A DNA stretch of 21,184 nt, from the IMG/VR virus record IMGVR_UViG_3300025141_000941, positions 1 to 21,184 of that record; one strand, given 5' to 3'. Position 1 is the first letter of the stretch; the number at the start of each line of letters is the position of its first letter. A model generated the notes under the pieces. That model searched no databases and had not been told where the DNA came from. It worked only from the letters and a program-made list of their open reading frames with translations. Position numbers and translations under genes: made by a program. The DNA comes from a virus. Below are positions 1,877 through 21,184 of the stretch, piece by piece.

Positions 1877-1930
1877 AGGGGGAGGGGCCAAGGCTCATTC
1901 GACACCCAAACAAGGGTCGCCCCTCTCCCT
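1877..1930 (+). repeat. Solo GAYACCC-loop hairpin, possible terminator
   Basis: AGGGGGAGGGGC (1877-1888) pairs with GCCCCTCTCCCT (1919-1930) over 12 positions with one wobble. The 30-base loop contains GACACCCAAAC at 1901-1911. The stem lies seven bases after a stop codon, so it may act as a terminator although no T-run follows. Its plan, a long GC-rich stem with a loop of about 30 bases and a central GAYACCCAA, matches the units of the array at 2924-3531, including the GACACCC variant of unit 3. Confidence 0.6.
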
Positions 1931-1994: not shown

Positions 1995-2777
1995 ATGAAC
2001 ATCGACATCGAAACCATCGAACGCGACTACGACCGGTTGCGTTGGAATGCCCGCAACCTCACTGACATCATGCAAACCCGTATCCGCTTGAGCAACCGGC
2101 AGGGAGCCTACGAGCGCTCTGGCGGCGTAGACTTCGATACGGAGGACATTCTTGCCCTTCAAAAAACAGTGGAGGAAGGCGCGGTCAAGGGCCTCACCAC
2201 CATCATGCGAGAAATTGTCGGCCCGCACATGACAGCGTTCCTCGCCACCAAGGGCATCGGCGACGGGAAGTTGCCTGCCCGCCTACTAGGCGAAATCGGT
2301 CACCCCGTTGTCGCAATTCCGCGGCATTGGGAGGAACGACCCGACGCCAAGGGCACCGCCGCCGATCCGAAGCGCGTCCTCGTCAAGGACGCTCCGTTCC
2401 TGCGGACCCCGGGTCAACTCTGGCGGTACTGCGGCTACGGCAACCCCGAAGACAAGCACCGAAAGGGCATGGCACAGGAAGAACTTTTCCTGTGTGGCAA
2501 CACTATCGCCAAGTCACTTGTTTACTTGATGTCGAAAAACTGTGTCCTGTTGACGGGCAATCCCGACAAGAACGGTGTCGTCAAGGCACGTTCCCCGTAC
2601 CGCAACGTGTACGACGAAACGAAGGCCCGCTACGAGACGATACGTCCCGAGTGGACCCCCATCCATAGGCAAAACGCGACGCTTCGCAAGGTCTCCAAGG
2701 AGATCCTCAAGGATCTTTGGGTCGCGGCGAAGGCAGACTTGGCTGAGACAGAACAAGCGCTGCCGGAGGCTGCATGA
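1995..2777 (+). CDS. Helix-hairpin-helix protein resembling the IS110-type transposase C-terminal domain
   Basis: The 260-residue product starts at ATG 1995 behind an AACAGAAAGC leader. Residues 1-75 are polar and helical. Around residues 80-100, FLATKGIGDGKLPARLLGEI has the GIG..hxAxxLLxEIG form of a helix-hairpin-helix DNA-binding motif. It is followed by RTPGQLWRYCGYG, the classic continuation of the Transposase_20 (PF02371-like) region of IS110-family enzymes, and later SPYRNVYDE and KEILKDLWV. I see no DEDD RuvC-like catalytic domain and no terminal IS features, so it is unlikely to be an active transposase. It is more likely a phage DNA-binding protein using this fold. It sits just upstream of the repeat array, which makes it a candidate binder. 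Function is inference. Confidence 0.7.
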   Translation: MNIDIETIERDYDRLRWNARNLTDIMQTRIRLSNRQGAYERSGGVDFDTEDILALQKTVEEGAVKGLTTIMREIVGPHMTAFLATKGIGDGKLPARLLGEIGHPVVAIPRHWEERPDAKGTAADPKRVLVKDAPFLRTPGQLWRYCGYGNPEDKHRKGMAQEELFLCGNTIAKSLVYLMSKNCVLLTGNPDKNGVVKARSPYRNVYDETKARYETIRPEWTPIHRQNATLRKVSKEILKDLWVAAKADLAETEQALPEAA

Positions 2778-2920: not shown

Positions 2921-2923
2921 ACA

Positions 2924-3531
2924 CCCCCGGGCCAAAAATGACGCGATACCCATCATTGTCCCGCCCGGGGGGTTCAATAATCTCACTAGCCAAAGCCGAC
3001 CCGATACCCCGGATGACGACGCTGGTGAGATTATTGAGCCCCTCCATTGCTGCCTCGACACCCAAGCCGGATTCGGGGGTTCAATAATCTCACTAGCCCA
3101 GTCGGATGCGATACCCATACGCGGCCCGCCGGTGGGATTATTGAGCCCCCCTATACCTGAATCGATACCCAAGAACGGCTCCGGGGGGTTCAGTAATCCC
3201 ACTAGCCATTCACGGATCGATACCCAAAGAGTGCGCGCTGGTGGGATTGTTGAGCCCCTCCAAGAAAGGCACGATACCCAAACCGGCTCCGGGGGGTTCA
3301 ACTGTCTCACTAACCAAGGCTCTTCCGATACCCAAAACAAGTACGTTGGTGAGATTGTTGAGCCCCTCTGTCGCGAAATCGATACCCAAACCGGATCCGG
3401 GGGGCTCAACTGTCTCACCGGCCAGAGTAGAAACGATACCCAACCAGTTTACGCCGGTGGGACTGTTGAGTCCCTCTATCACTGAATCGATACCCAAGTC
3501 GACCTCGGGGGGCTCAACTGTCTCACCCGCC
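2924..3531 (+). repeat. Alternating inverted-repeat array with GATACCC every 54 bases (non-coding)
   Basis: The heptamer GATACCC (GACACCC once) occurs 11 times on the plus strand, starting at 2945, 3003, 3057, 3110, 3164, 3219, 3273, 3327, 3381, 3435 and 3489 (spacing 53-58, mostly 54). Between successive heptamers lie arms of alternating orientation. The A arms are like GGGGGGTTCAATAATCTCAC (from about 2967, 3075, 3183, 3291, 3399 and 3507). The B arms are like GTGAGATTATTGAGCCCC (3025, 3132, 3241, 3349, 3457). Any A and its neighbouring B can pair into a stem of up to 18 bp with a loop of about 33-38 bases that contains one heptamer; B1 (3025-3042) with A2 (3076-3093) is complete apart from one G-T wobble. 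At the left edge CCCCCGGGC (2924-2932) pairs with GCCCGGGGG (2963-2971) around the first heptamer. Sequences between arms and heptamers vary. Both strands stay open for long stretches, but unit lengths of 107 and 109 shift the reading frame of the repeated segment, which argues against coding. Together with the leader to 3569 this is the only gene-free stretch over 300 bases. Confidence 0.9.
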
Positions 3532-3569: not shown

Positions 3570-3929
3570 ATGACCGAGATCCTCGCCGACGGAGACCTCA
3601 TCTTCTACATGCCCGACTGGGTGTGCGCCCCCGACGAACCCATCTGGCGAAACGTCATGGCGATTGCCATGAAGGCCGACCGGATCGGCGAATTCGAGGG
3701 TGGCGTTCGTCCCATCATCGACGAACAGGATCGGATGATGGCAATCGAAATGCCGAACCCGGCCTACAACGGCGTCCCCTCAGAGGCAGTTCTCAACGCG
3801 CTTCGTGGCTTGGGGATGGAAGAGCGGGACATCACCGACCTGATCGATTCGTTCACCGAGTTCGAATCCACCCGGGAACCCACGCAGGAATTAGAGTTGC
3901 CCGACATGTTCGTGGAAGGACAGGAATAA
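3570..3929 (+). CDS. Acidic hypothetical phage protein, 119 aa
   Basis: It starts at ATG 3570 with AGAAAG at 3554-3559, ten bases upstream, in the repeated leader form AACAGAAAGC. The product begins MTEILADGDLIFYMPDWVCA and is strongly acidic throughout, with about 20 Asp/Glu in the last 45 residues (LGMEERDITDLIDSFTEFES). It has no membrane segment and no recognisable catalytic motif. It lies immediately upstream of the RecB-type nuclease, two bases apart, and is probably co-transcribed with it. It could be a nuclease partner or regulator, but that rests only on position. Confidence 0.7.
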   Translation: MTEILADGDLIFYMPDWVCAPDEPIWRNVMAIAMKADRIGEFEGGVRPIIDEQDRMMAIEMPNPAYNGVPSEAVLNALRGLGMEERDITDLIDSFTEFESTREPTQELELPDMFVEGQE

Positions 3930-3931
3930 CC

Positions 3932-4765
3932 ATGCCGAAGATCCCGACTGTCAAACGAAACGACTCCCGCCTGTACCTGTGGGACGGCGGCGAACATCCC
4001 GGTGTCACCTCAGTTGTCGGGATGCTTCCCAAGCCTGCGCTCCAGCATTGGGCTGCGAAGAAGGTTGCCGAATGCGCCGTCGAAGTCGACCTTGGCCGCG
4101 TCATTTCCGAAAACGGCGAAGACCGGGCGGTCGACTGGCTCAAGCGCGCCCCGCAACGCGACTTACATAAGGCAGCCGACACGGGTACGAACGTCCATTC
4201 CCATGTGGAGCAGTTGGCGCTCGGCAACAAGGTCGATATCCCCGAGTCTGAACAGGGCTTCGTTGACGGCTTCAACGAGTTTGTCGACCGGTTCGAACCG
4301 GAGTGGCTGCGGTTGGAAGAGACCGTCTACGGCGAGTCGCCGTCCGGCAACGGTTACGCCGGGTCGTTCGACGCCCACTTGAAGATCAAGGGCGGGTGGG
4401 GTCTTAGCGATGACGGGGCCAATGAGACATGGTTGGTGGATTTCAAAACCACCCGGTCGGGCGTCCACCCTGAGGTAGCGATCCAATTGGCGGCCTACGC
4501 GAACGCGAAGGAGTTCATCCACCCGGATGGCAGCACGGAACCGATGGACAAGATCGACCGGTTCGGCGTGTTGTGGCTTCGTCCCAATGAGTGGTCGTTC
4601 ATCGAGTTGAACGTCACGCAGTCGCCTAACGACCTGTTCTTCAAGACGTTCTGTTCGCTGCTGGACGTGTGGCATTTCGATACGCATCTGCGACGCACTG
4701 CTTTGGGAGCCCCGTTGGGGGGTTCTAGCGCTGAAAGGCGACGCAAACTCGCCCGACCGTTCTAG
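3932..4765 (+). CDS. RecB/Cas4-type PD-(D/E)XK exonuclease
   Basis: The 277-residue product starts at ATG 3932, with AGGA at 3922-3925; upstream codons of the frame overlap the preceding gene and are rejected. The RecB-family motifs are in order: GTNVHSHVE (residues 85-93, motif with H89), ETVYGE (about 130), GSFDAH with D147, VDFKTT with D170 and K172, and the Q motif AIQLAAYA with Q185 and Y189. D147, D170 and K172 form the metal-binding and catalytic set of PD-(D/E)XK nucleases. No four-cysteine iron-sulphur cluster is seen, so it is RecB-like rather than a full Cas4. With SSB nearby, a recombination or replication-associated exonuclease role is likely. No annealing protein is visible. The stop codon overlaps the -10 box of the next gene. 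Confidence 0.85.
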   Translation: MPKIPTVKRNDSRLYLWDGGEHPGVTSVVGMLPKPALQHWAAKKVAECAVEVDLGRVISENGEDRAVDWLKRAPQRDLHKAADTGTNVHSHVEQLALGNKVDIPESEQGFVDGFNEFVDRFEPEWLRLEETVYGESPSGNGYAGSFDAHLKIKGGWGLSDDGANETWLVDFKTTRSGVHPEVAIQLAAYANAKEFIHPDGSTEPMDKIDRFGVLWLRPNEWSFIELNVTQSPNDLFFKTFCSLLDVWHFDTHLRRTALGAPLGGSSAERRRKLARPF

Positions 4766-4774: not shown

Positions 4775-5092
4775 ATGAACAACACATTCCAATACCATTT
4801 TGGTGGGACAACCACCGGCACACAGGCCAGCCACGTTGAGTGGACTTCACTCGACATCGACAGTCCGGTACGCGATAAGCGGCTGGAGGACATGGCGGCG
4901 TTTGTCGCCGTGTTCTGGCGACGGAAGCGTTACGGCCCGACGCTGCGAGAAATCCAATCCGAGTTGCACATAGCGTCGCTTGGCACAATCCGTTCTGACA
5001 TCGATCACCTCGTCAGAGCAGGGTGGGTGGATTACACCCCCTATCAGTCGCGGACGCTCGTCCCTACTGATAAACTGTTGTCGCTGGTGTAG
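4775..5092 (+). CDS. LexA-type winged-helix DNA-binding protein without a peptidase domain
   Basis: The 105-residue product starts at ATG 4775. Residues 36-98 match the LexA N-terminal DNA-binding fold: a first helix (RLEDMAAFVAVFWRR), then RYGPTLREIQSELHI with the P-T-x-R-E-I signature, a recognition-helix region (SLGTIRSDIDHLVRAGWV), and a wing (DYTPYQSRTLVP). LexA continues with a Ser-Lys self-cleavage domain of about 120 residues; here the protein ends after the wing, so it cannot be inactivated by RecA-stimulated autocleavage. It could be a phage transcription regulator. It is expressed from its own leaderless-type promoter and precedes ssb. The first 30 residues are polar and may be disordered. 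Confidence 0.75.
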   Translation: MNNTFQYHFGGTTTGTQASHVEWTSLDIDSPVRDKRLEDMAAFVAVFWRRKRYGPTLREIQSELHIASLGTIRSDIDHLVRAGWVDYTPYQSRTLVPTDKLLSLV

Positions 5093-5105
5093 GCCAACAA
5101 CGAGC

Positions 5106-5124
5106 GATACCCAACTCAACCTCG
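5106..5124 (+). repeat. Array-like element in the ssb leader
   Basis: GATACCCAACTCAACCTCG matches the last array unit at 3489 (GATACCCAAGTCGACCTCG) at 17 of 19 positions and has the same orientation. It lies 45 bases upstream of the ssb start. Another GATACCCAA sits inside ssb at 5433-5441. No long stem flanks it. Confidence 0.55.
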
Positions 5125-5168
5125 CCTCTCCAGCCACCCATTAACCACGAGGCCGACTGGAGAAAGAC

Positions 5169-20440: not shown

Positions 20441-21184
20441 ATGCCGAAATATCTGGTAAACGTCGATCTCAATCAGAACCAACTGGTCAAGGCTCGTATA
20501 GAGAACCTTGCCAGTGCCCCGGGGAGCCCCGTATCGGGGCAGGTGTACTACAACACTGGTAGTGGCACCATTCTTTTCTACAACGGCTCTGCATGGGTTG
20601 ACGTTGGCGGCGACATCGCTGGCGTTAGCGCCGGGACTGGGATGTCGGGTGGCGGGACCACCGGGACAGTCACCCTGAACCTTGCCGACACGGCAGTCAC
20701 GGCCTCGTCCTACGGGTCAGCATCAGCCGTTGGCACGTTCACGGTTGACGCCCAAGGTCGCCTCACTGCTGCGGCCAACGCCAACATCGCCATCGCCTCC
20801 ACGGCAGTCACTGACTTCACGGAGGCGGTACAGGATGTAGCAGGCGCACAGATCGTTACAAACGGCTCCCACACGGGACTCTCTGCCGCTTATGACGACG
20901 CGGGCGACGGCGCAGTCGATCTGTCCCTTACCAACACTGGCGTCACTGCTGCCGCTTACGGCTCTGCTACCGCTGTTGGCACATTCACCGTCGATGCCAA
21001 GGGTCGCCTCACCGCCGCCGCCGACGCAACCATCGCTGTTGCTTCGACGGCCGTTACCGACTTCACCGAGGCCGTCCAAGACGTAGTCGGCGGGATGGTC
21101 ACGGGTAACACCGAGACCAGCATGACCGTCGCCTACGACGACTCCGACGGCACCCTCGACTTCGTCAACACTGGTGTTACCGCT
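20441..21184 (+). CDS. Repeat-containing tail-fibre-like protein, 3' end outside the window
   Basis: ATG 20441 has GGAG (20431-20434) six bases upstream. The frame stays open for 248 codons to the right edge. Residues 1-60 (MPKYLVNVDLNQNQLVKARI, then GQVYYNTGSGTILFYNGSAW) are a fibre head segment known from phage tail proteins. Then SAGTGMSGGGTTGTVTLNLA leads into tandem repeats of about 82 residues, each with YGSA.AVGTFTVDA.GRLTA, TAVTDFTEAVQDV and AYDD. The DNA period is 246 bases (20729 to 20975). The copies are diverged at synonymous positions, so the repeat is old and selected at protein level. The repeat probably forms a trimeric beta shaft. Confidence 0.8.
   Translation, partial: MPKYLVNVDLNQNQLVKARIENLASAPGSPVSGQVYYNTGSGTILFYNGSAWVDVGGDIAGVSAGTGMSGGGTTGTVTLNLADTAVTASSYGSASAVGTFTVDAQGRLTAAANANIAIASTAVTDFTEAVQDVAGAQIVTNGSHTGLSAAYDDAGDGAVDLSLTNTGVTAAAYGSATAVGTFTVDAKGRLTAAADATIAVASTAVTDFTEAVQDVVGGMVTGNTETSMTVAYDDSDGTLDFVNTGVTA

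Follow-up and report, generated by a model that had tools for sequence, protein, structure and literature searches.

A 21-kb stretch of an uncultivated phage (IMG/VR virus record IMGVR_UViG_3300025141_000941, positions 1 to 21,184; hereafter the window), which carries portal, capsid and SSB genes, encodes a 260-aa protein and, between this gene (1995-2777) and the next open reading frame (ORF, starting at 3570), an array of eleven abutting stem-loop units built around the heptamer GATACCC. We analyzed the array and the neighbouring protein together and conclude, with a probability of roughly 90%, that they constitute a TIGR-TasA system of the stem-loop type, belonging to the RNA-guided DNA-binding TIGR-Tas systems described in 2025 by Faure et al. 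(PMC12045711). On this assignment the phage system is a new TIGR-TasA member. An initial annotation, made from the DNA letters alone, had matched the array to no named element, but the TIGR stem-loop array is such a named kind (PMC12045711). No match was returned by an Rfam search, nor by BLAST of the window and of the array against phages.

Exact GATACCC heptamers occur ten times, all on the + strand (2945, 3003, 3110, 3164, 3219, 3273, 3327, 3381, 3435 and 3489), and the eleventh core is the variant GACACCC at 3057; the successive steps are 58, 54, 53, 54, 55 and then 54 nt. The eleven same-orientation heptamers of the initial annotation, spaced by about 54 bases, are hence correctly phased and oriented, with one inexact copy among them. 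Its description of arms alternating in orientation within a 108-base unit is borne out by arm comparison and by Tandem Repeats Finder (period 108 nt, 4.9 copies on the window). Scanning the window with our covariance model R1 yielded 13 units, with E-values between 2.6e-9 and 0.0075, so that the interval first proposed, 2924-3531, captures the main array and leaves two further units outside (1879-1928 and 5085-5132; Table 1). The array RNA folds with z = -11.5 relative to shuffled sequences. A longer contig from the same virus (L110), whose 260-aa protein is 100% identical to that of the window, adds five units 3.7-4.1 kb upstream, before the window begins (L110 2507-2807), each with its own stem, including GGCCCAGC/GCTGGGCC, GGACCCGGC/GCCGGGTCC and GAGTCCGGC/GCTGGACTC.

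Aligned units share the consensus stem(8-17)-CA-N9-C-GATACCC-A-N9-C-stem, in which the stem sequence is free and the loop is fixed at 30 nt (12 + 7 + 11), against the 33-38 bases originally estimated. Each loop thus reads CCA-N9-CG (box C-spacer-box D) twice, 18 nt apart, giving two spacers within the 8-12 nt range of TIGR arrays, each between a box C and a box D, while variable palindromic stems stand where edge repeats would be, as in the stem-loop type. The geometry is highly specific: when stems of at least 7 bp were scored around 1132 GATACCC sites across all fetched loci, the arrangement with 12 nt before and 11 nt after the core gave 58 stems and nearly all others 0-3, the few larger cells (7-11 stems) being tandem coding repeats. 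In a set of 39 units from about 19 contigs, 96.9% of the paired cells were complementary and all ten stem pairs changed on both sides (10/10), with a covariation score of 1.12 versus 0.28 for shuffled controls and at most 0.21 for slid ones. The paired, covarying arms noticed at the outset are therefore real. The sequences between arms and core, then called unconserved, are indeed variable apart from the CA and C flanking the heptamer, and they would be the functional part, namely two 9-nt spacers per unit. No relation was found between spacers A and B within a unit; an overlapping core common to both was considered and rejected on the grounds that the ends of the spacers lack complementarity.

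The strand-flipping arms require no special mechanism, as they follow automatically from the tandem duplication of two abutting hairpins, here H1 (TCTCACTAGC/GCTGGTGAGA) and H2 (TTATTGAGCCCC/GGGGGTTCAATAA). Once H1+H2 is duplicated, each arm consists of the 3' half of the previous stem followed by the 5' half of the next; arm A is then the reverse complement of the H2 5' half joined to the H1 5' half, arm B is the reverse complement of the H1 5' half joined to the H2 5' half, and B is exactly the reverse complement of A. Pairing with both neighbours, the 108-nt double unit and the strand flipping all result from duplication of this abutting pair, which upholds the tandem origin suspected earlier. 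Because the upstream units of L110 each have their own stem, the basic unit is a single hairpin and the alternation seen in the window is secondary. Contig L040 shows the same abutting arrangement with other arm sequences.

Table 1. Features of the array, its partner gene and related in-gene units. Coordinates refer to the window unless a contig is named.
Feature	Position	Strand	Evidence
tasA candidate (260-aa solo Nop-domain protein without nuclease domain)	1995..2777	+	PHROG_4285, profile, AlphaFold model
Probable TIGR stem-loop array, 11 abutting units of ~50 nt each	2923..3516	+	cmsearch R1, E 2.6e-9 to 0.002
Array unit starts	2923, 2981, 3035, 3088, 3142, 3197, 3251, 3305, 3359, 3413, 3467	+	cmsearch R1
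Unit 1, box C CCA and box D CG around spacer A	2932-2934 and 2944-2945	+	
Unit 1, spacer A (example), AAAATGACG	2935..2943	+	unit listing, 12/11 geometry
Unit 1, loop repeat (example), CGATACCCA (box D CG, linker ATAC, box C CCA)	2944..2952	+	consensus
Unit 1, spacer B (example), TCATTGTCC	2953..2961	+	unit listing
Lone stem-loop unit 5' of tasA, spacers AGGCTCATT / AACAAGGGT	1879..1928	+	cmsearch R1, E 1.3e-8
Lone weaker unit, LexA-like ORF on one side, ssb directly downstream	5085..5132	+	cmsearch R1, E 0.0075
Cas4/RecB-like exonuclease gene (context)	3932..4765	+	PHROG_298, 9.7e-37
Units inside tasA, L112	5931-6650		
Units inside tasA, L117	5676-5842		
Units inside tasA, L115	3972-4081		
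Units inside tasA, L114	6141-6190		
Units inside tasA, L040 and L146		-	
Units inside tasA, L210			

The 260-aa protein matches PHROG_4285, named 'transposase' (6.6e-24). A profile built from 18 of its relatives, TasR and TasH being left out, nevertheless hit the solved structures of TasR (9mty, 2.1e-31) and TasH (21kl and others, 5.6e-20), and the AlphaFold model (pLDDT 85.9) superposed on TasH with Z 17.6 (195 residues, 2.6 A) and on TasR with Z 17.0, these alignments covering 191-196 residues. Profile and model thus both identify a Tas-type Nop domain. Homologues found by tblastn include one in Salicola phage CGphi29, the source of SpTasH (PMC12045711). The model also matches the IS621 recombinase, with 176 residues aligned at Z 13.7, ahead of unrelated long-helix proteins at Z 10.9 and below. 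Along with the PHROG name, this match would suit a bridge-RNA-like recombination system in which a shortened IS110-type transposase uses the hairpins to guide DNA rearrangement. We regard such a system as very unlikely, since the alignment begins only at IS621 residue 122-124 and the DEDD/RuvC domain is therefore missing, sequence and fold lie nearer to TasH and TasR, each RNA offers one loop in place of a target loop and a donor loop, and no element ends or copies were seen.

Array and protein also travel together. Searching viral contigs for three GATACCC at the array spacing recovered unrelated contigs, and 9 of the 13 contigs found by this DNA motif alone encode a TasA homologue, the other four being fragments of 8-20 kb; conversely, five distant contigs recovered by protein similarity alone (L112-L115 and L117) contain the hairpins. 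Elements cluster around tasA, which in the window is flanked by the lone upstream unit and the main array. Gordonia phage Morrissey, Rhodococcus phage Peregrin and mycobacteriophage Rich also have elements or homologues. A search of GTDB genomes for three linked cores gave 27 stretches. When these were scanned for the stem geometry none showed the element, though one of the source genomes contains units at other places. In the metagenome-assembled genome (MAG) G021, which is behind contig L159, nine single units lie on eight short contigs (L216-L223) with nearly the same stem (GCACCGGGGC/GCCCCGGTGC) and different spacers, alongside a TasA fragment; this is a dispersed, not tandem, form.

Cluster A mycobacteriophages encode 29%-identical relatives, whose annotations read transposase, DNA-binding or hypothetical protein, and five units lie in the interval of some 336 bp that precedes their tasA; as in the window, a Cas4-like exonuclease follows tasA. 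The TasA proteins of cluster A include Greg gp72 and BPBiebs31 gp74. Among 23 cluster A records (some being one phage in two collections), stems and boxes are invariant and spacers differ, with a mean spacer identity of 0.42 compared with 0.92 at 4-fold sites of the adjacent tasA. Spacer identity far below that of 4-fold sites indicates that spacers are exchanged rather than drifting. Spacers differ in a relative as well. Contig L111, which has an ortholog (517-566) of the lone upstream unit, retains the last array unit nearly unchanged and most others with different spacers (L111 1531-1974 versus window 2923-3516), the downstream exonuclease being 99% identical and tasA only 72%. In L179 (3739-3797) and its cluster A equivalents, the second hairpin has an extra small stem-loop (CGGCAACTCGCCG) replacing the short loop repeat, a feature that resembles bridge RNAs. 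The cluster A array and its turnover go beyond the published text of PMC12045711.

Such turnover bears on the possibility that the array acts at the DNA level, being bound in double-stranded form as an origin, a centromere or an operator array, with the hairpins incidental. Conserved blocks about 11 bp apart would present one face of B-DNA, and all cores share one orientation. However, spacer sequences vary far more than 4-fold sites do, units also occur within ORFs and as lone copies, and the stems are kept only as complementarity, their sequences being unrelated between units and phages, which makes a DNA-level site extremely improbable. Of the functions listed in the initial annotation, the structured RNA is retained, while stems conserved only as pairing can be explained without a DNA binding site, an origin or a centromere.

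In a sub-branch, the guides reside within the partner gene itself. Seven contigs (L112, L114, L115, L117, L040, L146 and L210) have one to four perfect units inside tasA. All seven place them in one and the same protein loop, bounded by the GxG motif on one side and the C-terminal KDLW motif on the other, and in a single reading phase; judged by position, G007 belongs with them. Seven scored TasA frames are free of internal stops. Units inside tasA are absent from the main text of PMC12045711.

By analogy with published relatives, the + strand of the array would be transcribed and then cut into single stem-loop guide RNAs, each gripped by a TasA dimer at both of its box C/box D pairs. One DNA strand would pair with spacer A and, in the adjoining stretch, the opposite strand with spacer B, the predicted target on one strand being spacer A, 0-2 bp, and the reverse complement of spacer B. 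This order follows from published cutting data, with 8-nt 3' overhangs and cuts 5' of the nucleotide pairing with base 5 of each spacer (PMC12045711), and the pseudo-symmetry of the loop had independently led to it as well. TasA without a nuclease domain might bind and bend DNA, thereby keeping the target from being transcribed, replicated or recombined; for this target, our best guess is the DNA of a rival mobile element or of the host.

Several observations weigh against a TIGR-TasA assignment. Nearly all units have CG as box D whereas TasR has UG, although in the published systems, where box C is CCA, box D may diverge while covarying between halves (PMC12045711); contig L050, with TG in both halves of 5/6 units, displays this expected kind of covariation. 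All hairpins can form with stems of 10-12 bp if neighbours share each arm, but naked RNA in silico favours long pairings between alternate arms, and the minimum-energy fold does not show all 11 hairpins together. No transcript or target was seen, and searches with cluster A guides found no predicted target in 50,697 phage records, in viral contigs or in the genome of phage Greg. In these phage records, 20-mers of the form spacer A-CG-reverse complement of spacer B, from 22 and then 8 guide pairs, gave no match, near-exact matches only being detectable. Degenerate patterns for two guide families yielded 0, 4 and 1 matches in viral contigs; those inspected fell within unrelated genes, except for one outside any long frame, as chance could produce. 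One shared guide had no match in 395 small genomes from one class around MAG G021, which are probably not mycobacterial. Across the fetched loci (1.7 Mb, of which 50 kb come from phage Greg), spacer pairs within 45 bp of each other, whatever their orientation, were confined to the arrays. This lack of targets would suit a structured phage RNA (a protein decoy or mRNA stabiliser) with the N9 stretches as mere spacers, which we nonetheless consider scarcely credible given their fixed 9-nt length, a turnover far above 4-fold sites with all else invariant, and a partner in the guide-RNA-binding Nop/Tas family.

A hint of the targets of the putative TIGR-TasA guides comes from some related guide pairs that, when joined across a gap of 2 bp, have most of their differences at the third positions of codons. 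The codon-phase test gave p = 0.007 for 21 close pairs (the best of three gaps, with non-independent pairs) and a weak signal for loosely related pairs (0.573 vs 0.514). It is conceivable, if on balance doubtful, that actinophage guides turn over much more quickly than neutral sites and are aimed at rival or host coding DNA, related pairs written as A-NN-reverse complement of B tending to differ at third codon positions of one frame, and that in the sub-branch with units inside tasA one transcript serves either for translation or as the source of guides.

Spacer origin, spacer targets and the role of nuclease-free TasA are left open in PMC12045711, and TIGR systems are hard to study as most are metagenomic (PMC12045711). 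Cluster A phages grow on Mycobacterium smegmatis and include many sequenced isolates, thus offering natural variation and a laboratory host for finding targets and function. A TIGR-TasA identity also corrects the common annotation as 'transposase' or 'hypothetical protein'. Elsewhere in the window, a repetitive C-terminal ORF, tail-fibre-like and with TVTLNLADTAV/TAAAYGSATAVGTFTVDAKG repeats, occupies 20441-21184 and runs off the record end.

Compared with known systems, the array resembles a CRISPR array in its tandem units, conserved frame and variable spacers and differs from it by having two 9-nt spacers per unit and a hairpin frame; CRISPR-Cas repeat (25-36 nt) and spacer sizes do not fit, no systematic cas gene search having been made. 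With the IS110/IS621 bridge RNA it shares a related Nop/Tnp domain and a loop carrying left and right guides, but it lacks a DEDD domain and has many single-loop units; classification as an IS110 transposon (N-terminal DEDD/RuvC plus Tnp domain) was rejected, the match running only from IS621 residue 122. Like the dual-repeat TIGR arrays of TasR and TasH, it combines two 9-nt spacers per unit, a CCA box C and a homologous Nop domain. Unlike these, which alternate edge and loop repeats of 8-12 nt in units of about 36 nt, it has no edge repeats and its protein no nuclease domain, and the dual-repeat class was set aside on the basis of the 54/108 period and palindromic arms. The closest counterpart is the published TIGR-TasA stem-loop array of a Peromyscus gut contig, with 13 stem-loops (PMC12045711), from which the window array differs in that its units abut without linkers, adjacent hairpins share one 22-24 nt arm, and the loop repeat is a constant 9-nt CGATACCCA with CG as box D.
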